A stretch of 64,000 nt of DNA from assembly GCF_964204865.1 (NCBI RefSeq), contig NC_135263.1:9097426-9161425 (forward strand), written 5' to 3'. Source of the DNA: Styela clava. Its lineage: Eukaryota > Chordata > Ascidiacea > Stolidobranchia > Styelidae. The position numbers were made by a program, and so were the translations under genes. Shown in pieces: positions 28,687 through 53,380 of this stretch (position 1 is its first letter; each line of letters opens with the position of its first letter). The notes beneath the pieces were generated by a model that saw nothing but the letters and a program-made list of their open reading frames with translations, was not told where the DNA came from and did no database searches.

Positions 28687-31600
28687 TTATTTCTTTTTGT
28701 TCACAGCTTTTCTTTTATCTTCCATTTCTTTCAATTTACTTCCCAGTTTACGCTGCAAATTTGCATGTTTATCAGGTGGTAGTTTTTTACTGGGAACACC
28801 ACTTCCATTATATAACACTCCATCTCTGGATATTTGTCGTCTTGCTGACGAATGTGCTGCAGAGCCGCAACCATGTACTTCAGGCATATGGTGTTGCAAA
28901 CAGAATGTCTTTTTGCAAAATGGGCAAACCTGTCCCAATAAAGTAGTCGATTGTTCGCAAGAGTTTCCAGCACAAATTTTGTTTGAATGAATTGCCTCGT
29001 TAACTAAATTATCGTCACTCATTTGTGGTTTATTTTTGTTCTTATTTTTCTTAATCTTTGAGTTGTGCGATTTTTGAGAACTTTTAGGATTTTGTTGTTT
29101 GTTTGATTGGAATTTATCTTTCATTGCTTTTAAACGTTCACAGTGAATTTCATGGAGTTTTATGTTTTCAGACGGCAGCTTTTTACCACAAGTTTTGCAA
29201 GTTGTGATCTCAACTTCCTCCAGTTTTATAACAGGTTCTGGTTGCTGTACATGTAATAATGTATTTTCAGGTGGTTTTTCATCTTTCAGGTTTTCAACAA
29301 CATCTTTATTTTGATTTTCTGACTTGTTCGACGTAACTTTTTCATTAAGTGATTCACTTTCCACAGTTGTCGGAGAAACATCAATTTCAAGAATTCTGTT
29401 TTCTGAAGCATTCTCTTTTGCAAGTGATATTACTATTCTTCTATCTTTGTCTATTCCAATACTTTCATGCTTCAGTCCCAATTCTTCACACAATTCATGA
29501 ACTGCGAGCCTTTCATGAGCTTTCAAGGTTGGCGAAAACTCATAGGACTTACCATCAAGGGCTTCTTGACTTGTGCTAAAGTCTAGTATTGTCTTGCGGA
29601 ATCCACTCTTGATCTTTTCCAAATCATGCTTCTCTTCCTGTTTTTGTGTGGGAACAGGTTTGCTATGTTTTTTCTTGACAACATTATCTACAAATGCATC
29701 AAAATGAGATGCATCATCATCTAAATCTTGAGTAAACTCGTGAGCCGATCTCACTTCCCCTTTCTCACTCATATAATCAACAAGAGTTTTTAAGAAGTTA
29801 TGTTTTCCAACAGTTAAAGAATCACAGATTAAAGCAAGATGACGCCGTGCACGTGTGACTGCAACGTTCATTCTTCTGTCATCAGATAAAAATCCAACTA
29901 CGCCTTTTGGGTTTGACCTTACTAAAGATAAAACAACAGCTTCCTTCTCTCTGCCTTGAAATCCATCTATAGAGCGTATTTCTATGGCTTTGTATTCTTG
30001 ATGCAAGAGCTTTCTTAATAAATCAACTTGCATATTGTAAGGTGATATGACTGCAATATCGGCTGGACTCATTCCCGCTGTGATGAGTTTTCTTACATGA
30101 TTTGCAACAATGTCGGCCTCTGCTGGGTTACCAATGGATTCACTATCAATAGTTTGAAGTTCAGGCATGTTACATCCAGCTGTATCAATGTATAATAGTG
30201 GTGTTATTGTGTCCTCTGTATCATCAACTCCTGTGAGCTCTTTCAAAAGATGATCTTTCACAGAGTCATGAGCAGTTAATTTTGAGTTATACATATTATC
30301 TGAAGACCAATTCATAATCTCACTGTTCATTCTGTATTGCACATTCAACATTTGGACAACTTTACTATGTTTGATGACAATCCTTTCCAACAATGATTGA
30401 GAAAGTTGTTTTGTAGCAGCTGACTTTGATTTCACAGTCGGGGGAAGTTGGAGATGATCTCCCGCAAGAATTGCTTTTGGTGCTTGTAGCAATGGAATCC
30501 AACATGATGCTTCTAATGCTTGACCACATTCATCAATCACAACAACATCAAAATGATCATTGGGTAAATGTTTGAGTGGTCCATCAGCATGAGCTCCCAC
30601 ATTTGTTGCAAGAATGACATCTGCAGTTGCGAGAATTTCTGTAATTGCTTTTTTCTCTCGTGCTCGTAACTCTTTCATCAGAGTCTTTTTCTCCTCTCTG
30701 AACTTGAACTGTTCTTGTTTATTGTGTTTTTTGCGAAAATTCAAGTATAAATTATCTAGATCTTTACGTACATCCTGGACAATTCTAGCTGCATCGCTTT
30801 TTGCGATCATTGCATCAAGGGATAATCGATGTAGGTCTGAAGATAAAATTCGAGCAGGATGACCGAGTCGTATAACTTTTATTGGTGCCAAAGTAGTACT
30901 GCCCAACTTTCCCTTATTTATCTTTACTTTTGAAAGTTTTTCCAAAATATTATCAATTGCGACATTGGAAGGGGCACAGGCTAAAACTTTTTGCTCATTG
31001 ATCACAAATTGAGTTATCAATTCAGCTATTGTAGTAGTTTTTCCAGTTCCTGGTGGACCGTGAATAACAGCAAGTTCTCTTTGTGACAATGCAAATTCAA
31101 TTGCACTTTTCTGGGATGTATTTAATGCATCATTATAATATTTATCAACCTTAGCTGGGCTGGAATACGTTGTTGGTTCGGCCGTTTCAAAACAGACATT
31201 AATCAATGATGAGACAATTTTTCCATGATGAAGAAGGCGTTCCAAACCTTTTTGAAGACGTCTATATGTGACTTCATTTGCAGTTTTAAAAACAAGTAAG
31301 CTCTGATCATTTGAATTTAACTCATCAGCTTTTGAGCGAGAACCATCACCATCTAATGCCACATGGATTGTATCATCTCTCACAGAAGTAACAACTCCTT
31401 GCAATTCTGGCTTAGAAAGATGATCCACATGTTTCGAGTGTAAATCCACAATGTCACCAGAAGAGAAGTAATGTGATGGCAAAGGTCTGTCTTTACCACC
31501 TCTTAATCCAAGTTTAATGATTGTTCGCCCATAAAGGCCAGTTTTCATAGATACAATGTGAAGTTTTTTTAAGCAAATTCCACGGTTTTGTAATTCTGAT

Positions 31601-31695
31601 AAAGGAAGAGACTTTTTCAGAGAGCTGCATTCTTCTATTTCAGCCTGATGTTCCTCCTTCAATAACTCTTTATGGAGTTCAACAAATTTCTCCAT
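28687..31695 (-). CDS. IGHMBP2: IGHMBP2/SMUBP-2 superfamily 1 helicase, intronless
   Basis: A single open frame of 1,002 residues, close to the 993 of the human protein. Motifs in order: Walker A HGPPGTGKTT at about 212-221, DECGQALEASCWIP (Walker B; human has DECAQ) near 388, VQYRM near 452, DGFQGREKE at 577-585, and VAVTRARR near 611. An R3H domain follows at about 695-760, then an extra C2HC finger (C833, C836, H848, C852), an AN1-type zinc finger at about 908-943 and a basic C-terminus. The family are ATP-dependent 5'-3' RNA/DNA helicases linked to ribosomes and translation. I chose the ATG at 31695, which gives MEKFVELHKELL and matches the family N-terminus. An in-frame ATG at 31755 would add 20 hydrophobic residues. 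A TTTTAG acceptor at 31722 between the two ATGs supports the shorter start. No introns are present, unlike the many-exon vertebrate gene. Confidence 0.95.
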   Translation of the reverse strand: MEKFVELHKELLKEEHQAEIEECSSLKKSLPLSELQNRGICLKKLHIVSMKTGLYGRTIIKLGLRGGKDRPLPSHYFSSGDIVDLHSKHVDHLSKPELQGVVTSVRDDTIHVALDGDGSRSKADELNSNDQSLLVFKTANEVTYRRLQKGLERLLHHGKIVSSLINVCFETAEPTTYSSPAKVDKYYNDALNTSQKSAIEFALSQRELAVIHGPPGTGKTTTIAELITQFVINEQKVLACAPSNVAIDNILEKLSKVKINKGKLGSTTLAPIKVIRLGHPARILSSDLHRLSLDAMIAKSDAARIVQDVRKDLDNLYLNFRKKHNKQEQFKFREEKKTLMKELRAREKKAITEILATADVILATNVGAHADGPLKHLPNDHFDVVVIDECGQALEASCWIPLLQAPKAILAGDHLQLPPTVKSKSAATKQLSQSLLERIVIKHSKVVQMLNVQYRMNSEIMNWSSDNMYNSKLTAHDSVKDHLLKELTGVDDTEDTITPLLYIDTAGCNMPELQTIDSESIGNPAEADIVANHVRKLITAGMSPADIAVISPYNMQVDLLRKLLHQEYKAIEIRSIDGFQGREKEAVVLSLVRSNPKGVVGFLSDDRRMNVAVTRARRHLALICDSLTVGKHNFLKTLVDYMSEKGEVRSAHEFTQDLDDDASHFDAFVDNVVKKKHSKPVPTQKQEEKHDLEKIKSGFRKTILDFSTSQEALDGKSYEFSPTLKAHERLAVHELCEELGLKHESIGIDKDRRIVISLAKENASENRILEIDVSPTTVESESLNEKVTSNKSENQNKDVVENLKDEKPPENTLLHVQQPEPVIKLEEVEITTCKTCGKKLPSENIKLHEIHCERLKAMKDKFQSNKQQNPKSSQKSHNSKIKKNKNKNKPQMSDDNLVNEAIHSNKICAGNSCEQSTTLLGQVCPFCKKTFCLQHHMPEVHGCGSAAHSSARRQISRDGVLYNGSGVPSKKLPPDKHANLQRKLGSKLKEMEDKRKAVNKKK

Positions 31696-31721
31696 ATTAT
31701 AACTTATTATGAAGAATGTAT

Positions 31722-31745
31722 CTAAAATTTTAAACAAATGAATCA
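31722..31745 (-). other. splice-acceptor-like site before the IGHMBP2 start
   Basis: On the minus strand TTTGTTTAAAATTTTAG ends at 31722, leaving a 26-nt leader before the ATG at 31695. It fits either trans-splicing of a leader or a short 5'-UTR intron. Confidence 0.4.
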
Positions 31746-31755
31746 CAGTCAACAT

Positions 31756-32181
31756 TAATTAACATGGTCGTTTGAATGAATTCATTATAGCCTACCTCAA
31801 AAATTGAAATTCAAGGGATTACCAGCCTATAAAATTTCACATGTTTCAAAAGTAATTTGAAAAATAATACTCCATGATTCAACAATACAAACATTTCAAA
31901 AAAAGCAAAAATTTTCAAGGCAATGATCTTATTAAAAATTGTCATTGCTGACATTATTCATTATTAAATGGATAAAATTTTGCCTTGATATTTTTACATC
32001 AGACATAAGTATGCATCATGAAATATTATCAACAGCTCATCAAAAAGTAATACTGGATACTATGACTGCAACATTGTTAGATGGCATATCACCTAGTTAA
32101 CAATTTAGTTCAAACTTTTTTGGTAAATGCGGAAAAATTCAACCAGTTAAATTATATAAGAAAGCAACCTAAAATTACATA
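31756..32181. other. spacer between IGHMBP2 and COA5
   Basis: About 430 bp of AT-rich DNA downstream of COA5 and upstream of IGHMBP2, both on the minus strand. No gene is visible. It should contain the COA5 3' UTR. Confidence 0.5.
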
Positions 32182-36259: not shown

Positions 36260-36560
36260 CTATTACTTTTGTTTATTCTTAAATTTTATATGAATCCTAT
36301 GAGATATGATATTTCATACAAAATTTCGCGGTATTTATTTTTACTCATGGGAACACTGTTTTACACTTATTTCAAGCGGTTTCGCGATCGATTGTCTTGC
36401 TCAGTACTACAGCTACTGTAGGTCGGTACTGGTAAGTTGCCATACCGGTGCCGTAACGCAGTGAAATTGACTTATTCCTTCCGCGGTATTACTAATGCTG
36501 CAATGCAAGTTTTATAGCCTATCGTATGCGGAACGGAATATCAGACCTACAGGTTCGGTA

Positions 36561-37216
36561 CCGGTACTGGTAGCTCAGTACGTAAGTACGATACTGGTAC
36601 TGGTGCCGGTACCGGTGTCTTACCACAATGAAATTACCGTAACTTATTCTTTCACGGTCCTACCAGTGCAGTAATGCAAGCGTTGTAGCACTTGTAGCCT
36701 ACTATATTTGTTTATTTTGATGAGAGTCTACTGGAAACAACATAAAATTTGAAAGGGAAGAATTGTTCTGTGATCAATTATCTGTCCTAAAGTGTAAATA
36801 ACATAAAATTTGCAAGGGAACAACTGTTCTGTGATCAATTACCGTATATGGCCTACAGTGTACAGGTAAGATGCTGGCTGACTGCTAACCGGTACTGGTA
36901 GCTCAGTACGTAAGTAGGTACTGGTACTGGTGCCGGTACCGGTGTCTTACCACAATGAAATTACCGTAACTTATTCTTTCACGGTCCTACCAGTGCAGTA
37001 ATGCAAGCGTTGTAGCACTTGTAGCCTACTATATTTGTTTATTTTGATGTGAGTCTACTGGAAACAACATAAAATTTGAAAGGGAAGAATTGTTCTGTGA
37101 TCAATTATCTGTCCTAAAGTGTAAACAACATAAAATTTGCAAGGGAACAACTGTTCTGTGATCAATTACCGTATATGGCCTACAGTGTACAGGTAAGATG
37201 CTGCCTGACTGCTAAC
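36561..37216. repeat. tandem duplication, 2 x 328 bp
   Basis: The unit starting CCGGTACTGGTAGCTCAGTA at 36561 is repeated almost exactly from 36889. Each copy contains an internal near-duplicate of about 68 bp (ACATAAAATTTGAAAGGGAA against ACATAAAATTTGCAAGGGAA). Each also has a run of overlapping GGTACCGG/TACTGGTA palindromic motifs. No coding potential is seen. Confidence 0.85.
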
Positions 37217-38339: not shown

Positions 38340-41300
38340 TTAATGACGACTAGGAAGAGCTCTACTATAGATGAAAACAATGACTGATAAAAGAACAGCG
38401 ACGGATGACATCCAACCTAAAGTTGACCATGCAGTCACACCATCGAAAGAATCTAAAGTTTTGTGTGCGCTGAAAAAATAAGAAAAGTTTTAAGAAAATT
38501 GTATGATACGATTCAGAGAAATAATATGGTTCGTGTCATAGAATGCAGAAAGCTGTCGTCAAATCATTCGGTGTTGATTCTTTTTAATGAATTTGTTAAA
38601 AAGATATATATATTAAATACAAACAACCAAATATAAACTTTGATTCTACCATGTTGTATTCCAAAAGAAAAGTTTTTACTTATTAGCCCAGGGGTTCTTA
38701 AAGTATGGGTCGCGACCCATCTAAAAATGGGTGACGCCAAGGTCGATCCAAGAGAAGATGGTCGAATCTTTCAGCTGGTCCAATGTATCAATTTACTTTC
38801 GTAACTTTAGTATTTAAAAACTATGAAATGTCATTCAAGGAAAGAACTGTTTTGAGCTCATTGTTACATCACAATTTATATAACAGTCACGGGTCTTGTT
38901 TTATGGTGTAGGTCGGTAACCATGCACATCGCTTGTCGTTGTGTTGACCGCGCGGATTCGCGGAATGTCATCTTACTGGAGCAAAATAACCAATAATGGA
39001 TGCTTTCTTTGGTAACGTGAATCCTAATGGACAAGGAAAAAAACTCGCTTGCCAACATCAGCTGATTCAAGATCTGAAGAAAATGTGGCTTCAGCTCGAA
39101 GCCCCAATTACTGCGAACGAAGCACTGTGTGCACAAGTGATGAGTGAAAAGTTGCGGGAGAGACCGAAGGCTTAGCTAGGATGGCATGTTTGCGTCGGTC
39201 AGCGGTATAGACAAATTGGAAACGAAGCCAATAATTAGAAATGACGCAATAACTTTTCTGCTACCATTCGTGACCACGTATCTATGCGAGCATGGATTTT
39301 TGGCACTGATGGTTATTAAAACTAAGGGCTCGCAATCGCCTCGATTGACGACTTGCGCATTGCCTCAATAAAATATAGGCGTGTATTGAAGATATAATGA
39401 AAAGGGAATTTCAGTTTCACCAATCACACTGAGTCAATGGACAGTTTCTAATAAAGCATTGCCTGTATTTGATTCAAAAAGTACTAACATTAAAAATACA
39501 TTTCTGTGATGTTAAGGATTGGGTCGCGACCACAAATCAGCCAGTATAGTAAATAAAAAAAACGTAGTAATCCAGACATACCTTGAGTATTCGATAGCTT
39601 CAAGAAGAGCTTCTTCTACGATGACACTTTGAGCAATTATTCCGAGGGCAATAAACATATGAAAAAACTGGTGAGAACTTCCGACAACGTCAAACCGGCC
39701 TGGAAACTTTTGTTCCGGAAATCGTGTGACATTAAAAAACGCAGCCACCAAAAAGAACATGAGATGAAGAGTGTAATAGAGTGGAAACGTTGTTTCAGCA
39801 AGTCCACACAAGTGAGCCGATTTTGGATTATCTTCAGCGTCAGAAGTGGAGGTTTCTTGTTGTTGTTGTACCAAACGTTTGTTCTCTATACATGACTCGT
39901 TTATAGGGCACGCGTTTGATTGATGGTCATAAACATATGAAAATGCGGTACTTTGTACTTCTGCGGGTTCAGCTCCCACTACTGGAATGATTGAAAATTG
40001 CAGTTTTGTATAATTTGCCTCCATGGTTGGAATAGTAACGTGGTCTCTCAGACGTAGTAATGTAGGTGTACTGATAACAACGAATGGCATAACATACGTG
40101 AGAGTTCGTAGAAGATAGCGCGCTTTCACGTGAGGGAAGCGTGTATGGCAACATAGTACGTGTGATAAAATGGCCAAGGCAGTGGCTACAGGAATATAAA
40201 ATTCTGAATGGTCTGAAAAAGAAAGCAATTTGGATAAATAACATGCACAACTGTAAAAAATGCAAGGATATATAACTGTGAACGTGGGATAAGATATATT
40301 TTACAAATCAAAAAATAATCTTAGAATTAGAGATAGAATTAGATGGCCACAAAACGCGACAGGTTTTGAGCAAATAATACGAAAGTTGGATTTCGCCGAA
40401 AAGGCACTTTGTTTCGAACAACTCAATTGCTCACTCCACCTGTAGCTTACCGCTGGTTATTGATTAGAAGTAGACCAAGTTGAAAACAAGCAATATCACG
40501 TTCGTTCACAAACGTGATTTAAGTAACAGGGCTTACATTTTTTCTCATTAGCAACGATCCCTTTTTTTTCGAGGTTTATTTAAAAATGTAATACTTAATA
40601 GTATTAAAAATAGTGTACTATACGTTTGTCTGATTAGATTTTGGATTGATTATTTGTAAATTTACATTTTAGTAAATATCATAATAATAACTCTTTTTCG
40701 AAGAATATGATCAAGATTTGAATAACTTCCAAGCAAAATTCCAAAACGGTATATACCTTCATTAAATCCATGGCAATGTGGTGGAGAAACGAGGTAAAAA
40801 TAAACGATTGTACCAGCAACGGAGTAGATCGATATTGCACCATAGTCAGTACAGAAGCATATGTGACGAACTCTTGCTGAAACGCAGTTAAACATATGTG
40901 CAAATGAACTGCAGCCGAGTAAAACGCAGCAACCTGAAAGAAGAAACGTAGCTTGTAAAATATTTCCTCAAACTACGATTAAATGCAATAGACGGCATCA
41001 ATAGTTTTTCGATATCGATATAAACAGATATTTCAAAGTTGAGATACTGTTCGCGATTTGTGCCTTGTTTTTTATGTATTGTCAATTGATTTTGTTTTCT
41101 TAATTGAAGCAATTTAGCGAGTCATTAACTTAAATTAGAAATAGCAATGCGCTCAATGGTAAGCTATTAAAAATAGAATACCATGCGGAAAATTCAATTT
41201 AAAAATACTCGTTTCTAGGTCATTCGGCATTTTCTATAACGGGAAGAATCTCCAAACAGGAGGCGCGCAGTGCAGCGAACGCTCACTTGTTTTCATGGTG

Positions 41301-42486
41301 CAATTAAGCGCCTATATTATAAATTATAGATACGATGAAAATAATCGCGCATCGATGGATTATCCTCCGTAGCTCTTACTAGTAATTAGATATTATATAT
41401 ATAAGCTGCACGACATATGGATATTGCGCATGCGACTTACGGTCCATGCAAAATTCGATAAAGGTTAAATTGATTTGGAAAATTGATTCAAAACTGACTG
41501 CAATATTGACTGAAAATGAAAATTGTGGATTCTGACTGACACACGTATAAAAGAATATCAAGCGAAAGCTGTGAGCATCACCTCCAACACGAGCGTTTGA
41601 ACTTTAGTATCGCCTGAAAACGTACGAATTAGCATGCGAAAAAAAACAAATTTTAATCTTATTTGAAACAATTAGTCAAACACTCCAACATATTCCGGTT
41701 TGTAATCTTTGTCGTCATTCAAATGCTCCATTATTTGCCTTACACCATTTTGGATTTTTTAACTGCTTCTGATAATTTTGGCTCAAACAGAAACATGAAC
41801 CGTGTCCATCTGAGCTGCCAAATGAAATCTCAATAAAATAGATTACCAATACTATAAAACGCAATTAATATGTGAATTTGTTCTCAGTCATGTCGTTTGA
41901 TAAAACAAAAAATATAGTATTTCAGAATACCCAATTGCTAATTTTATCCGATATTAAAGCAGATATAGAGAACCGCAGGTTATTTTTAGTATATTCCATG
42001 TTAAATTTATTTACCATCCATCCATTTATTTCAGTGAAGTTGTACTTCTGCCTAAATACTATGTTGTGTTAATCAACACAATTCGAAAGCAATATTCTCA
42101 CCCATAGAATAAGTCCAAAATGGATAGGATATGATCTTAACATCTTCCCTGTCCCAGTTGAGAGTTTGGGACAAATTGAAATGCCGCGACATCAAAAACA
42201 GCATTGGTAAAAAGTGAGTCCAAAAATTTAACGTTTCATTTGTGGGATGTAAAGCACTGGTAATGCAGTATTTCACAGGACTCGGATTCGGCCTGTATGC
42301 CTGTCGTATGTGGCGTTCTCGACAAAATGACGGCATTTCATCATATTTTTTCAGGTTTGGCGAATGGAGTCGAAACAGTTGTGTTGTCTTTGTCCACCAT
42401 TTTTGTAGCTTGTCATCTGAAAAATTTCCTATGCCTTCGAGTGTGCTGCTTTCATGGCTCGGAGAACATGTCCGGCGAAGTGACAT
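38340..42486 (-). CDS. PAQR: PAQR-family seven-transmembrane protein (membrane progestin receptor-like)
   Basis: Four exons on the minus strand join in frame: 42102-42486, 40757-40933, 39582-40212 and 38340-38469 (1,323 nt, 440 residues). Exon 1 carries the PAQR entry motif RQAYRPNPSPVKYCITSALH followed by PTNETLNFWTHFLP. Exon 2 has RHICFCTDYGAISIYS. Exon 3 has FPGRFDVVGSSHQFFHMF with the membrane-zinc His residues. Exon 4 ends in a final hydrophobic helix (TLGWMSSVAVLLSVIVFIYS). The pattern fits the mPR class (PAQR5/6 most similar by eye), seven-helix proteins that respond to progestin-type steroids in vertebrates; the ligand here is unknown. The protein is about 100 residues longer than usual, mostly in one polar loop with N-glycosylation sites, cysteines and a short Gln run before the fifth helix. 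The large last intron contains a hAT relic. Confidence 0.9.
38689..39533 (+). mobile_element. decayed hAT transposon in the last PAQR intron
   Basis: The left terminus reads CAGGGGTTCTTAAAGTATGG followed by the palindrome GTCGCGAC, a canonical hAT end. GGGTCGCGACC recurs at 39521, suggesting the right end, but the outermost bases are missing there. A hAT transposase C-terminal relic lies inside at 39186-39397. I could not identify a clean target-site duplication. The element fills most of the intron 38470-39581. Confidence 0.65.
39186..39397 (+). pseudogene. hAT transposase dimerisation-domain relic
   Basis: The frame contains LLPFVTTYLCEHGFLALMVI followed by KTK, matching the hAT C-terminal dimerisation motif (TTYLCExGFSxLxxIKTK, as in ZBED/SCAND3-type proteins). 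A frameshift near 39345 breaks the reading frame, and the expected tail beginning LRIA continues in another frame to a TAA at 39395-39397. The N-terminal zinc finger and catalytic core are not visible. Confidence 0.65.
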
Positions 42487-45400
42487 GTTTATCAGTTCTT
42501 TTCAATTCATTAAACAGTTAAGTTTCTATTACACATCGAATAAAGAACTTCAATAGACAATACAAAAAGCCTGAAAAAAAAAATCAAACTATAAAGCCCA
42601 GTTAATCTCGATATTTCATTAGCTTGGAAGTCGTGGGATAATCACAGATAGAAAACGATTATTTACTGACAGAGCAGCTACGCAAGAATCTTTGGTGAAG
42701 ATTCCCACCCATAGAATAAATAATATCTCTGGTAACGAGTCAGCATAAAGTTTTTGATTTTCAGAATAAGGTTTACCCTTCGCAACCTCAGAAAGAGAAC
42801 ACGCTAAAAACAGAGAAAAGCATGGAATATCAAAGTACTAAGGAAAGAGAACGGACGTTACCGACATAAATACCAATAAAATTCCAATGAAATTTTCAAC
42901 ATTCTTACTCACTATCTGAACCTATTAGTACTATAGTATGTATTACTGGAAACAGGTACAACATATGTACCGCAGTTCCCAACATATTCACCATGCTGTA
43001 CGTTAACTGACCACGAGAGTTTGAAATGAACAACTAGCAAATCGATAGGTTTCTACGAAACATGTCCTACAAAAAATCGACTTGAAAGCTTTTCGTCAGT
43101 CAATAAATAAGGATAATTTTTCCACTTTAAAGATATTTAATACCTGACAGGTGCTACCTGATTGTTCTCATTGGATTGTACGATTCTAAAGTAGTTGAAT
43201 TAATACAACAAAAGCACAGCTTGTCGTAGTGCAGTATTAATAAGTCGCCAAGGAGTAAGGGATTAATGTTATTGTGGAAGACGTAGGCCAAGTAGACTAA
43301 ATTATTTATCAAGCAGACGTACTTTACTCTGAAACGGACGTCCATACTCATCGTGTTTTTGTTTTAAAACGTCAAATCAATGTGCAGAATGGCCTTCAAA
43401 AAGGTCCGAACGTACTTTAACCTACGGCGACTTCATTAAAATGTGCAAAGTAGACGTCAGAAAAAGTTGAATATGCACGAATTATTGTTTAGAGATTCAT
43501 ATGGTATTGCCGTCCAAACTTAATCTTCTAACTTATCTCGTATTATGAAAATGTCGGTACGCGAGGTGTTCAAAATTAGAGATCGAAATGAACAGGACAC
43601 AAAAAGTAATAATTGCAAAATTTGACACAAATTAACATTATATCAGTTATCAGAGTAGAAATTAAACCAGAATGAATGTTTGAACCAGAATGAATCACGC
43701 TTATGAAGTATCCACGACGCCAAATATCGATATAAATATTTCAGGTCACCACATAATTCATTTTTGGTAAGCGTCCAACGCGCGTCAAATAATAAGCATT
43801 TTTTTGTGTTTTAAAATTTCGATGTTTCGCTTTGTTCGTAAATTCGAATTTTCTCCTCTCAGAAAATCAGTTCCACATTTTGCTACAAAATTCGGCCCTC
43901 TTCTTTTATGCGCGATAAACTCTGAAAATACGGAAATTAGTGGCATTGAACTGATATCACGTTAGCGCTAACATATTGCTATGTCCTGAATTGAAACATC
44001 TGCGACCTACCACAACCCGGAAAAATTTGCATATCTAAGTTTCTTTCGTATCTAATACATATCGTCTTTCTACACGCCTAGCACTCTCCGTAAGTACCTA
44101 ATGAACTAGATGTATATGCTGCGTTGGAACAAAAGCGAGTTTAGTACGAGTTCATACTTAGCGCGATCGATTTTCCGATACACTCTTATTATACGGTCGC
44201 GACTTTCGTCAGCTGTCGACAGAACTGCAAATTAGTTCCTATATCGGAAAATATTGAAACCGTTGCGATATCCCAATAATACTTTGAAACTCCAATTAAA
44301 CAGAACGGCTATGTAAGTCACGCGTAGATTAGTTAGTACACAATCAAATTTAGTCATTATGTCGATTTAGGGATAATTTCCTATATACATCGATGAGCGA
44401 CCACATAGGTAAGTATAAAAAAATTAAATTTCTTACTCTGAAAATTGTGATTCAAATTGGCCAGGAAACCAAAACCCGATGAAAAATAAGAAACACGAAT
44501 GCTTACAACAACTAAGAGGCAGAAAACATGAAGGCGCATATAAAATTCTATGAAAAAAGAATTCAACTAGAGGCGCTATTGGACTGCACAGCACAGTTTT
44601 AAATGTACTTCGTTTAGGAGTTTTTACACGTGCTGTAACTTGACAATATATTGCTCAAGTTTTCTGGTATCCATCTATGGCTATAAATTGGCGGGGTGGC
44701 CATGAATGTTTCCCCAATACTTAGCTGATTAGCAAATATTCCAAAACAATCGTTTTCCAGGCATAAATTCAACATTGCATTGCGACTATAACACCGCGGT
44801 ATTTATGAATGCAAAAATGCACACATTTCGATCACGTGTTATCAGCTTTTTCGTTTTGAATATCCGAATGCCGAAGGTGGTCAGAAGCTAAGTTAGCATT
44901 GATGTAGCAATAAATTTGGAACTGGTGCAGACAACAGATAATGTAAGCTTACTGAAGTTACACAAAATTGCTAATGAAACCTCCTGGCTCTAGCAGAATC
45001 CTGTGGGTTTTTCCGCGTGGCATCTCAAAATAATTCCTCACAAACCAGAGAGTTCATTAAACTACGAGGAATAAAAACTGTTCCGAGAAAGAGAACAAAC
45101 CCCAGACGTAACCAACCTGCTGCAAACGCTTCCTTGTCGGGTTCTGTCTATGTTGGTCATGTGCGCGTTGGCAACATTTGTTACGACATAGACACTACGA
45201 TATTATTACATCATACACAAAGTGTATATTCTGGTTATGAAAGCTTCGACCAGAGAAATAGGGAAATGGTTGGCGCGAAGTTCGCATGTTTCATGGAACT
45301 TATCGCTGTATTTGTTATAACAAGCTTTGAGATCCATTGATATCTATCACCTAAAATCTTGAATGTATACATCAGCTGTTACAATCAACGATACTTCCTT

Positions 45401-45774
45401 ATTCCATGTCGTATTTCTGCCATGTCTAGGCCGGTGCTTTCGCAACTGCTCATTGCAAAGGTGTATCGTATGTATCCATGATCCTATCAGAGCCATTAGG
45501 ACTGTAACTAGTGTTATCTGAAATTAAATAAGCTGTTTTAGTATTCATTACTGATTGAAGTCCAAATTATGATCAATTTGCATGATATTTTTCGGAAATA
45601 GTTCTCATGCCTACAAACGTATATAAGGTCTGAGATGATACTTGAAAACAATGAATAAGCAAAAAAAAAAATTTTACCGGGCCTATATTGAGGTCTGAGT
45701 CATTAAACCAACTCGAATTATTTCATTAAACGTTGAGGAGCAAGTGCTTATTTTGCCTAATGTTTAATCCAGCC
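42487..45774. other. intergenic DNA between PAQR and IDH3B
   Basis: This should include the PAQR promoter and any 5'-UTR exon. A minus-strand exon-like segment with acceptor and donor lies at 42681-42804 (see findings). An open frame at 45017-45340 starts with GTG and matches no family I know. Nothing else is supported. Confidence 0.4.
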
Positions 45775-46281
45775 CTGCACCATGGAATTTAAATTAGGAA
45801 AAAATGAACACACAAGCAATTCTTTCATCGCAAAATTGTTGTAGTATAAAGATCAGGCACTGTTATATCCGTAAATGGGCTTTCCTTCACGTTAATTACA
45901 TCTTGGGTGTAGTTAAAGTATGGATTTACGCTAAGATCTAGCCCTGCACCATGGAATTTAAATTAGGAAAAAATGAACACACAAGCAATTCTTTCATCGC
46001 AAAATTGTTGTAGTATAAAGATCAGGCACTGTTATATCCGTAAATGGGCTTTCCTTCACGTTAATTACATCTTGGGTGTAGTTAAAGTATGGAATTACGC
46101 TAAGATCCAGACCTGCACCATGGAATTTAAATTAGGAAAAAATGAACACACAAGCAATTCTTTCATCGCAAAATTGTTGTAGCCTAGTATAAAGATCAGG
46201 CACTGTTATATCCGTAAATGGGCTTTCCTTCACGTTAATTACATCTTGGGTGTAGTTAAAGTATGGAATTACGCTAAGAAT
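45775..46281. repeat. tandem repeat, 3 x 169 bp, upstream of IDH3B
   Basis: Three nearly identical head-to-tail copies begin CTGCACCATGGAATTTAAAT at 45775, 45944 and 46113. The third has a 5-bp insertion (GTAGCCTAGTATA). The array ends about 156 bp before the IDH3B start codon. Each unit includes an ATG-containing frame, but copies lack a shared long reading frame. Confidence 0.9.
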
Positions 46282-46437
46282 TTTTGTCGAGCATTGACAT
46301 ACAATCGAGAACTCAATTTGCCTCATGCCATCCATATTGATATTTATTATGATTGTTACGTCATAAATGTGACAAATATGCATATGTTAATTGTTTTATA
46401 CATTTTGGTACTTACTCCGGACAATACGGGCTTCGTA

Positions 46438-47580
46438 ATGGCTTTAAACGTTAAAAATGTGTTGCGGATCTTCAGATCCAACCGGTTTCAAGACTGTTAT
46501 CCTATTTGGCCAATAAATAAGTTGGAATTTCGAAGACATTTTTCGGACAAGTCGTCACAAAACAAGGAAAAACGTACGGTTACTTTGGTTCCAGGAGATG
46601 GTGTTGGACCGGAGCTAATGGCTTCCGTTAAAGAAGTTTTCAAATCTGCTTCCATACCAGTAGAATTCGAAGAGTTCTGGGTGAGTGAAATACAGGGTCG
46701 GGCAACAAACGTGCAGGTGGAAAAGTTGACAAATTCAGTCATTAAAAACAGAGTAGCATTGATTGGTGACATATCATCGCGCTTGAGTGCAACTGATGGG
46801 GAATTAGCATCCACCAAATTTGTCATCAGGAGGCGTCTTGATCTATTCGCCAATGTCGTGAGAGTTAAAAGTTTCAAAGAATATAAAACTCGCCATAATA
46901 ATCTAGATTTCGTTATCATTAGAGAGCAAACCGAAGGTGAATATACGGCATTGGAACATGAAAGCGTACCCGGCGTTGTTGAATGCTTGAAGATTATTAC
47001 AAAGGCAAAATCTGAGCGTGTTGCCAAATTTGCATTCGAATATGCAAAAAAACATGGACGCAAAAAGGTTACGGCTGTCCACAAGGCGAATATAATGAAA
47101 CTTGGAGACGGAATGTTTCTGGAGTCATGTCGCGGAATAGCAAAAAATTATCCTGATATACAATTTGAGTCAATGATTGTGGACAACACTTGTATGCAAT
47201 TGGTTTCAAACCCGAACCAATTTGACGTTATGGTCATGCCGAATTTGTACGGAAACATAATCGACAATTTGGCAGCTGGACTTGTCGGCGGTGCAGGAGT
47301 CGTTCCCGGTGAGAGCCACAGTCCGGAATGTGTGGTATTTGAAACCGGTGCTCGTCATCCGTTTGCTCAGGCCGTTGGGCGTAACATCGCAAACCCGACA
47401 GCCATGCTTTTGTCTTCCGCTCATATGCTGCAGCACTTGAATTTGACACAATATGCAAAACTGATTTCCGGTGCAGTAAACAAGGTTATCAATGGAAGCA
47501 ACGTTAGGACAACTGATCTTGGAGGATATGCCACAACTACTGAGTTCACACAAGCTGTTATTGATGAAATGCAAAAATAA
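46438..47580 (+). CDS. IDH3B: isocitrate dehydrogenase [NAD] subunit beta, mitochondrial; intronless
   Basis: 380 residues in one exon (human IDH3B is about 385). Residues 1 to about 40 are basic and lack acidic residues in the first part ([17 protein letters not shown]), consistent with a mitochondrial presequence. The body has [92 protein letters not shown] and [20 protein letters not shown]. These match the beta subunit more closely than alpha or gamma (GELAS and VVPGES are beta-like). The beta subunit is a structural/regulatory part of the heteromeric TCA-cycle enzyme that oxidises isocitrate with NAD+. The open frame continues upstream to 46246, but that part is repeat-derived and unlike the family, so I start at 46438. 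No intron is present, raising the possibility of a retrocopy. Confidence 0.93.
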
Positions 47581-48885: not shown

Positions 48886-51800
48886 CTAGTACATTCCACT
48901 TTCGTCCATTAACATTGCTTCTCTGCGGGGATGCGATCGTCTGTATTCTCGCAAAACTGGAATGGCATCTCGGTCGTCAGAATAATCTGGATAACCCGGC
49001 GCTTCGTGAAGCTTTTTCATCAATCCTCCGATCAGAGCTTCAAACATACTGTCACTTGCGGGCGTCATTGTTTCGGATGGCTTCTTCTCTGACAACGCAC
49101 ATTCGTGGTGATAAGTGCAACCGTCTGAAAACAAATATTGACGTTTATTATGAGTTTTAAAACATAAATTTGAATTCTGATGAACGGAGTACATCACAGT
49201 ATAATTAAGGTAGCATTGAATACTATAAAAAATTCAGGTCATTAAGATTCACACGGTTATATATATACATATATATGCCCAAGTCACGCGAATCTGAGAT
49301 CACACTTCAATATTTTAAGTATCTGATTCCAATGAATAAATCATTATTTCCCAATCCTCGAGATAATCTCGATACATCAGCGTTAAGCTGGACTTATAGG
49401 ACCACTTTGGCGGCTTCCAGGCATATTTAGAAAACGATGACTGTTTTAAATGAACGGCGGCTTTCGTCCTTCATTCATTATGAATAAGGAACGGAAACGC
49501 GGTTCAAAATGATTTTATCGCTGTCAAAGTTGAGGTTGCTGTTTTCACTTGACCAAAAGCGATATAAACCCATTTTCCCGTGGTCGGAAGTGAGGGAGGG
49601 GATTAAAATGATCAAATGAAGACAAGAAACGATATCAACACTTTTTCGAATATACAAATCCTAATAGTCTACATAGAATAATATAGAAAATCTTACCAGC
49701 ATTACAACACAATCCGTCAGCGGCGCACACTCCCATTGATTGTACGTTTCCCTTTTCTCTGTCTTTTCTCATGCACGTCGGACCTGCCGAGGCGCATTCG
49801 ACGGGAATTCGGGATTCGTACCGGCATGGCTCCGTTATCTCGTTTTCCCCAATGACGCAACCGAGGGCTGGCGTGCAGCACATCCGGGAGCTGAAGCACT
49901 GGCCTGTCCCTCGTAAGCCGCAAGGTGGACACTGAAATAAATAAATAACACATTGATTAGACCACTAAAAATTATAGGAAAGTCATAGTCATAACGTAAA
50001 ATCAGTCAAAAATTAGGAAAATAGCATTCCCCACCAAAATATTGCCATATAGCCATATTTATATGATTTACACTTCGATATTGTTACTCTTGTTCAGCGC
50101 GTGAAGTGCATTTGCGTAGTTGAGATTTGTGGCAAGCTACTGGAGTAAAATTTCAAAACGAATAGATTAATACGGATCTGTTTTATCTAAACGTCATGTT
50201 CCAAAAACGTTGGCAAAGTACATCTTCTTATCTATATATCGCGCTCTGGTATTTGCGTATTACTGCTGTAAATTGATTCATAAAGTTGGTCTTATTTGGA
50301 TACGATTATTGAACGCATCGAAATTTTTATTCAATGTTCTGGAGTTTCGTCTGAAAAAATTTTGGTCAATATCCGTCAGAGTATATTTGCGTCATTTTCG
50401 ATTTGAATTTTTGTCCGATTTTGATTCGAAGTCCGATTAAATGTCTAGACCGGTATAGCCGGTTTGGGTAGAAAGCAGATTAAATCATTGGATATCGCTC
50501 AAAACATTCTAGATGAGTCAGAGACCTATCGAAAGACTGTGCCCAATATCGATCATCATGGTATAAGTAATAATAACAGCAAAATCTTCACGTTTTGCAT
50601 AGTTTCGGCACAATATTCGTATTTATTTGGCAGAAAAAAATTGTAATGTAAAATAGCAATGAAGGCATTTTACATGCTAACTATTCGATAAACACCAATA
50701 TACGTTTTATTTACTTTTCACAACTTGGAGAACTTAGCAACTCTCACCACTGTGTTAAAATTGGCTGATGGCCAAACTAATATTATTTGCAATCATGAAG
50801 ATTATACCGGCTAATCTGACAAGTTGCGTAGTTTCGGTGGATATTCATGATTAATATGTATAATAAGTATTGATCTTTTATAGGGTGTATAACAAGTTTA
50901 CGTGGTACTTTTGATTTTGAATATCTCTACAGTATTCACCAAATTGCAGATTAGTTAAATATAGATTTTTGGGGATTACTAACCACCATTGGTCAACGCA
51001 TATTTCAACATGCAATCGCAGCACTTCGTTGGCATCAAGTCGACATTGTGCAACCTCACACTACCCGCTATTTGTCTTAAATATAAGAAGATCAGAGCGG
51101 CCTCATTTGAATGCTTTGGTGGTTTATAGAACAATAAATAAAAACGCGAGAACATTCATTCTTAACATGATAATCATGTTCAACAGAATGTTAAGAATTC
51201 ACAACGTTAGGGAGTCGTTCCTCGTAAGCCTGAGGTGCATTTGTATCAAACTGCGATCGAGTCGCACTTTCAATTTTTAAGCTCATTTTATTGCATCAAG
51301 AAAAGTATACTGAGCAAATCGATGACGAAGCTGTGAGATTTTCCAATCACAGACGGGCGATTCGGAGTTGGAAACGACCTGATTTCCGAGTTCATATTAT
51401 TATGAACAAAGACAAAAACTCACGACAATACCAATTATTAGCATATTAGCTCAGAGTTACAGAGACTTATCACCACAAACTTAACGAACCTCTTCAATGA
51501 CATTAGTATTTAAAACACTTAACGTTAGATTAACATGCTGATTTATTATAATTGACGTTCTAAGGCTAAGCAAAATGAATCGAATTTGAGGCAAATGGTC
51601 ATCTTTCATGTTTTTGATTAATTTTAGTCTTACAAAAAAAAATCAATCCATCGACCGTAATGAAAAACTTTTAATCTGATTATGTTGAGTAAATTATGTT
51701 GTTATAACTTTATTTTACAACAAATAATTCGAGACATACCACGAAAAACATGCATGAAATTTTGACCTCATTTATTTCATAGCCTGGTACCTCTAATTCG

Positions 51801-53380
51801 ATGTGACAACACTCGTCGTTACGCACGTTCCTTTCACGGATCGTGTAAGTGATTTCCAACGTAGCCAGTAACGTAAAGATTTGGGTTTTGATGGTTATCA
51901 GAATATTTTATCGCATACATTTATGAGTCAATCGAGACGTGCCGCCCACCCCAAAACTCAAATGGTACCAACCACTTCGCGTTACTAATTATTTCATTAA
52001 TGGAATACTACTGATATAATGTTGATGTTTTTAGCGAAAAAAGAAGAATAAACTCTCGTGAACTAATTTTTCAAACTTAACCCCCAAAATCAACAAAAAT
52101 TCAATTGAAAATTATATCTTGTCGCTCTTCAAAGTTACCAAAAAGTTTTAGCAGTATTTTTTTCATTACTGTATATAATTGCAGCTTTGAGAGAATTCTT
52201 AAAATTCATGTTGAGAGGGGTTTGTTCTACTTTGAAAAATCCTCATGGAATACTGACAAATACAATACGAAGTACGAAAACAAATAGTTCGAAAACGTCC
52301 TCTTAATGAACTCCGACATTTACCCCAGTGTCATCATTGACTAGTTAATCAATACGAATATGCAAAAATTTAAAATAGCATTCACTTTATTGGTGAGAGA
52401 TTTCACTCTTTCCGCAACAATATACTGAAAATGATATATGGAATAATTCAAAAATTAAGGTAGTTATCCGCTAACGTGTTTAATAATTTTTTGTACATAT
52501 ATATTTCATTTATTGTTCGTAGTTACGCCAATCAAAATGGGATTAAACTTATCTATTACCATCTGCGCGTCGGGAACTATACTTGATTTAATTTAAAGTT
52601 TGTTGTCTTGTTTTTGCGATAAACTGAGGTGATTAAATACCTGCACTAATTCTTATCATAGAATTCATTACTAAAATTGGAAACGAATTGTCTTTTTCAT
52701 GTACAAATGAGACAAGAGAATTTGATTATCATCGATATTTTATGTGCTAAGGACGGGACACGACGATAATGTCGTTTTGTTTATTTTCCATTTTTCACAT
52801 GCGTGTCTATCGCAAATCTGATTGTTATGATCGGCTATGTTGATTGACAGATCGCTTTATTCGAAATATTAGACAAATTAACAGAATGTCAGTGGAAAGT
52901 TCTGTTCGTGCTTATGTAAAGAAGGTTGCACAAGACGAAAAGTTCGCGACGATGTTGCATATGCTAAATGAGTTGAGACTAAATGTTTATTCTTCTTGAA
53001 AACGAGGGGTAGTCGTTCTGCGGTTTTTCGAGTATGTTTAGTCTACTGGATTAAAAAAAATCGATTATTTTTTGAGAAAAATTTTCACGGCTAAAAAAGT
53101 TTAGAAAAATGGGGAAAGTGAAACATGTTAGTTTTTCATGCAGAAAAGAATATAAATTGACAAACGAACAAACACAAAACATCGACTTACGAAGTGTCCT
53201 CACCTTTCGGATCGGAGGACCAGAACGTGTTTGCTTATCTCGTGTGGGTTCGCGCTTTCCAGAATTCCAGAAAACTGAGTTTGGACAGTCTGTTATGTAA
53301 CAACTTTCAACGCTGACGTAACTGATAATGACGACAAAAATAATTAAAAGATTCAGTCTTTCGGAGTACGATGATGTCAT
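48886..53380 (-). CDS. vasopressin/oxytocin-family prohormone with neurophysin (14-residue hormone type)
   Basis: Three minus-strand exons join in frame: 53204-53380, 49697-49931 and 48886-49124 (651 nt, 216 residues). Residues 1-26 are a signal peptide (hydrophobic core LLIIFVVIISYV). Residues 27-43 read CYITDCPNSVFWNSGKR: a disulphide ring C1-C6, a 14-residue hormone, Gly as amide donor and a KR cleavage site. A linker (44-59) leads to neurophysin from C60 (CPPCGLRGTGQCF) to C146 with all 14 conserved cysteines. About 11 extra residues (around MRKDREKGNVQSM) sit between the ninth and tenth cysteines. Residues 147-216 form a C-terminal extension. Both introns fall at the positions of the vertebrate vasopressin/oxytocin genes (before CPPC, and after the LCCNA block). 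The hormone is secreted and expected to act on a V1/OT-type GPCR. The start ATG at 53380 is the first in frame; upstream codons include only a GTG. Confidence 0.96.

Follow-up and report, generated by a model that had tools for sequence, protein, structure and literature searches.

The window analysed here, a 64,000-nucleotide stretch of the Styela clava contig NC_135263.1, carries on its minus strand a gene for a precursor of the vasopressin/oxytocin (VP/OT) type, which is complete as read and apparently intact (Table 1). Its three exons can be joined in frame into a coding sequence of 651 nt for 216 residues with 16 cysteines, of which the hormone has two and the neurophysin the other 14. 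About 6 kb past this gene lie exons that probably belong to a PAQR/HlyIII-type membrane protein. The interval between them holds a long uninterrupted frame for the NAD subunit beta of mitochondrial isocitrate dehydrogenase (IDH3B), which is either an intronless main gene or a retrocopy that has stayed intact. The stop-to-stop frame of IDH3B starts inside the last copy of a 169-bp tandem repeat situated immediately before the gene. The window also holds a SMUBP2/IGHMBP2-type helicase gene, apparently without introns, and a duplicated 327-bp unit rich in GGTACCGGT-like words. No tRNA and no Rfam family at gathering score was found in the window.

Table 1. Features of the hormone gene and its surroundings, in positions of the window.
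Feature	Position	Strand	Basis or remarks
Coding exon 1: signal peptide, hormone, GKR, 16-residue linker	53204..53380	-	phase-0 donor AAG/GTGAGG at end
Predicted signal peptide MTSSYSERLNLLIIFVVIISYVSVES, 26 aa	53303..53380	-	hydrophobic core; putative cleavage just ahead of Cys27, from the -3/-1 rule (Val, Ser)
Hormone CYITDCPNSVFWNS	53261..53302	-	sequence
GKR amidation and dibasic cleavage site	53252..53260	-	sequence; processing predicted
Intron 1, 3272 nt, phase 0, GT...AG	49932..53203	-	exon joining
Exon 2, neurophysin core, 12 of 14 cysteines	49697..49931	-	PF00184 and PDB matches; acceptor ttatttcag, donor G/GTAAGA
Segment CMRKDREKGNVQSMGVC, holding the ten-residue neurophysin insertion	49725-49775	-	
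Intron 2, 572 nt, phase 1, GT...AG	49125..49696	-	exon joining
Exon 3, neurophysin C-terminus (last 2 Cys), 70-residue C-terminal extension, stop TAG	48886..49124	-	in-frame junction; acceptor tttgttttcag
C-terminal extension SMFEALIGGLMKKLHEAPGYPDY	48889-49098	-	KK and RR sites
IDH3B frame	46183-47580	+	best PDB match 2.4e-145
169-bp unit, three tandem copies	45767-46279		97% matches
PAQR/HlyIII-type exons (probable)	39515-42501	-	
PAQR/HlyIII-type exon	39515-40300	-	above Pfam cut-off
Further probable PAQR/HlyIII-type exons	40682-40972, 42076-42501	-	no Pfam match; assigned by eye
327-bp unit, two copies	36560-37216		98% matching
SMUBP2/IGHMBP2-type helicase, 1023 residues, R3H and AN1 zinc-finger domains	28690-31758	-	one uninterrupted frame

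The first-pass annotation had set the limits of the first exon of such a hormone gene exactly, leaving the strand unstated. Read on the minus strand, from 53380 to 53204, this segment is precisely coding exon 1 and gives, in order, MTSSYSERLNLLIIFVVIISYVSVES-CYITDCPNSVFWNS-GKR-EPTRDKQTRSGPPIRK followed by the GT donor, with GKR directly after the hormone as had been described. Cys1 and Cys6 of the hormone come directly after a signal-like segment (MTSS...SVES, then CYITDC), whose core, LLIIFVVIISYV, has a best 12-residue mean Kyte-Doolittle value of 3.24. This segment is predicted to be cleaved off as a signal peptide, by its hydrophobicity and the -3/-1 rule. A motif made of the cysteine ring, a G and two basic residues matched once in the window and never in 200 mononucleotide shuffles of it. 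With a looser motif covering the ring only, a second match appeared at position 39458 of the minus strand; it was rejected, because stop codons flank it closely and an amidation site is missing.

Stronger support than this chance test of the motif is provided by exon 2, because it is a neurophysin exon above the PF00184 cut-off that follows exon 1 on its strand after 3.3 kb. It was one of six open stretches that contained eight or more cysteines in 60 residues when all six frames of the window were scanned, and it matches Pfam Hormone_5 (PF00184) with an E-value of 8.1e-13 (49.5 bits, cut-off 27.2). Searched by themselves, exon 1 gives no Pfam match and exon 3 none above cut-off (only DUF4734, 16.4 bits versus a cut-off of 25). 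When exon 2 was searched against the PDB (E up to 0.001), all eight distinct matched sequences were neurophysins, those of the bovine structures 1jk4 and 1npo being matched at an E-value of about 7e-5; the alignment to neurophysin II spans 77 residues. In bovine neurophysin II the loop between the 9th and 10th cysteines is short, and exon 2 is ten residues longer there. The limits of exon 2 fall at cysteine 1 of the neurophysin and shortly after cysteine 12, the same sites at which introns divide the VP and OT genes of vertebrates. Modelling of exon 2 alone by AlphaFold2, without relatives, gave a mean pLDDT of 57.6 and a pTM of 0.36, values from which no structural inference was taken.

The C-terminal extension encoded by exon 3 could release a further peptide at its KK and RR sites. 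It resembles copeptin by eye, but this identity was rejected, since the local alignment score with human copeptin (26) was matched by 244 of 2000 shuffles and that with rat copeptin (21) by 749 of 2000.

The Styela oxytocin-related peptide (SOP) of Styela plicata is reportedly to be credited to Ukena (2008). Its sequence, with 14 residues and an amide, is CYISDCPNSRFWST-NH2 (PMC7181382, Table 1; PMC2656470, Table 3), which agrees with the 14-residue form ascribed to the Styela group in the first-pass annotation. The hormone encoded here is identical to SOP at 10 of the 14 positions and carries Thr instead of Ser at position 4, Val instead of Arg at position 10, Asn instead of Ser at position 13 and Ser instead of Thr at position 14. 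Against the SOP sequence printed in those tables, the four differing positions, including the replacement of the tail Arg by Val, had been named correctly. This identity, together with GKR and the neurophysin exons, bears out the proposal of an elongated, amidatable hormone of the Styela type; the term "divergent" holds for four substitutions in 14 residues relative to S. plicata, and not in any wider sense. Since SOP is published, the elongated 14-residue form was already known, and what is new, within the literature searched, is the sequence variant. The string CYITDCPNS is absent from the text of the open-licence PMC papers searched, and no second SOP-like sequence was seen in the available portions of the literature on ascidian VP/OT peptides. 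The exact hormone sequence may already be present in animal protein databases as an automatic prediction.

Position 8 is the classical discriminator between VP and OT, and Asn occupies it in all three ascidian peptides compared (S. plicata, the present one and Ciona). The further suggestion that loss of the tail Arg could alter receptor preference is speculation that we do not favour. Stated more broadly, the tail substitutions (Arg10 to Val, Asn13 and Ser14) would have changed receptor recognition or potency relative to SOP. The tail does hold three of the four differences, and the peptide has one positive charge fewer than SOP; because Arg10 to Val removes this charge, an effect on affinity is possible. 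However, Asn8 and the ring are unchanged except for Ser/Thr4, and Thr4 is also found in the insect peptide CLITNCPRG and in the Apostichopus peptide CFITNCPLG (both in PMC7181382). In addition, S. plicata has Arg at position 10 where the present peptide has Val and that of Ciona has Asp (compared without gaps, from the sequences given in that source), so that a basic residue at this position is not conserved in the ascidian peptides seen. With Asn8 shared, position 10 variable and Thr4 present elsewhere, the claim of a changed receptor preference is left with the difference of one charge, and a change of recognition or potency appears unlikely. Slightly less probable again is a retuning by hormone-receptor co-evolution within styelid ascidians, of which Arg10 to Val and the new C-terminal dipeptide would be the mark, with the peptides of the two species discriminating each other's receptors.

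A single match to the PF00184 profile was obtained in the whole assembly (376,610,584 bases in 379 contigs), and 14 control genomes gave no match to this family. When the full precursor was searched against the assembly (E up to 10), only its own three exons were recovered among the best candidates scored. That the locus is a pseudogene or a decayed duplicate of a VP/OT gene is very improbable, as it is the sole copy found in the assembly, its three exons are open, the 16 cysteines are kept and the splice sites are GT...AG. Precursors of NG peptides (NGFFFamide type) are said, after Elphick (2010) and Elphick and Rowe (2009), to contain neurophysin as well, but such a precursor is scarcely credible here, given the Cys1-Cys6 ring with Pro7, the 10/14 identity to SOP and an exon 1 in which no NG peptide is visible by eye ahead of the amidation site.

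The assembly was also searched with a segment of a vertebrate V1a-type receptor (TM2-TM4). Three matches were obtained from 38 scored candidates (E up to 0.001), the best of which lies on contig C16 with an E-value of 6e-15 and 48% identity. One TAA is counted inside this match; since the match begins one codon ahead of the open frame of the exon, this TAA is read as intronic and located just before the exon. The locus concerned (L005, minus strand) has two exons, carrying ...VALFQVLPEILM... and ...VCTAMDRYLAIRYPMQTFKQ..., both of which are above the Pfam 7tm_1 cut-off. In the reciprocal PDB check, which covers L005 only of the loci L005, L006 and L007, the top 12 distinct sequences of either exon (among the best 60 of 90 matched for one and the 29 matched for the other) all belong to vasopressin V1a, vasopressin V2 or oxytocin receptors. 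The exons found are of the TM1-TM4 type only, and no TM5-TM7 exon was detected by a motif and hydrophobicity filter in the 9 kb examined. Because both exons match VP/OT receptors best, this locus likely encodes a VP/OT-type receptor with which the hormone would interact in the same genome.

On these grounds the locus is very probably an intact three-exon gene, single in the assembly, for a 216-residue preprohormone of the VP/OT type, likely the orthologue of SOP, whose product would be processed and act as follows. The signal peptide would be removed before Cys1, and a prohormone convertase would cut after GKR with conversion of Gly into an amide, the product being disulphide-bridged CYITDCPNSVFWNS-NH2, whose computed monoisotopic [M+H]+ is 1645.677 and which the neurophysin would carry through the secretory granule. 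Released from the cerebral ganglion, the hormone would activate a VP/OT-type GPCR, for which the locus on contig C16 is a candidate, and the resulting contraction of siphon muscle would limit the intake of dilute water, as reported for SOP. According to section 17 of PMC7181382, the cerebral ganglion of S. plicata expresses both the gene for the SOP precursor and the peptide, SOP expression increases in dilute seawater and siphon muscle contracts in response to SOP. For the Ciona peptide, the role given there is to promote oocyte maturation and ovulation. The present hormone most likely corresponds to SOP in function as well as descent, as a siphon-contracting peptide of the ganglion; orthology makes the siphon role the likeliest, and a reproductive role is possible.

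The gene provides a second 14-residue amidatable hormone of the VP/OT type, described here with the structure of its whole gene and with a candidate for its receptor, and suggests that the SOP form occurs beyond the single species for which it has been published. It also makes visible which tail positions tolerate change, an observation that is useful to comparative endocrinology, but expected.

With 14 residues, the hormone departs from the classical VP/OT hormones, which are the majority and have nine. Length is not definitive of the wider family, since section 17 of PMC7181382 includes in it the ascidian peptides of 13 and 14 residues. Like the vertebrate VP/OT precursors with neurophysin (PDB 1jk4, 1npo, 2lbh), the precursor has a hormone, GKR and a 14-cysteine neurophysin, whereas the vertebrate hormone is a nonapeptide and the present gene has a longer hormone, the ten extra neurophysin residues and an extension that is not significantly copeptin-like. 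With the Ciona vasopressin (CiVP, CFFRDCSNMDWYR, without amide; PMC7181382) it shares a lengthened C-terminus, Asp5, Asn8, a Trp in the tail and a three-exon gene; CiVP differs in having 13 residues, no amidation signal, Phe2-Phe3-Arg4 and Ser7. The Ciona gene is flanked by RPS6KA3 and CELSR3 according to PMC2656470, and neither was seen among the 16 other window ORFs chosen for Pfam, a partial survey. The closest likeness is to SOP, with which the hormone has in common its 14 residues and amidation signal, the ring CYI.DC, PNS and the tail FW, that is, the core CYIxDCPNSxFW. The genes also agree in their number of exons and introns, three exons and two introns being given for both SOP and the Ciona gene in PMC2656470.
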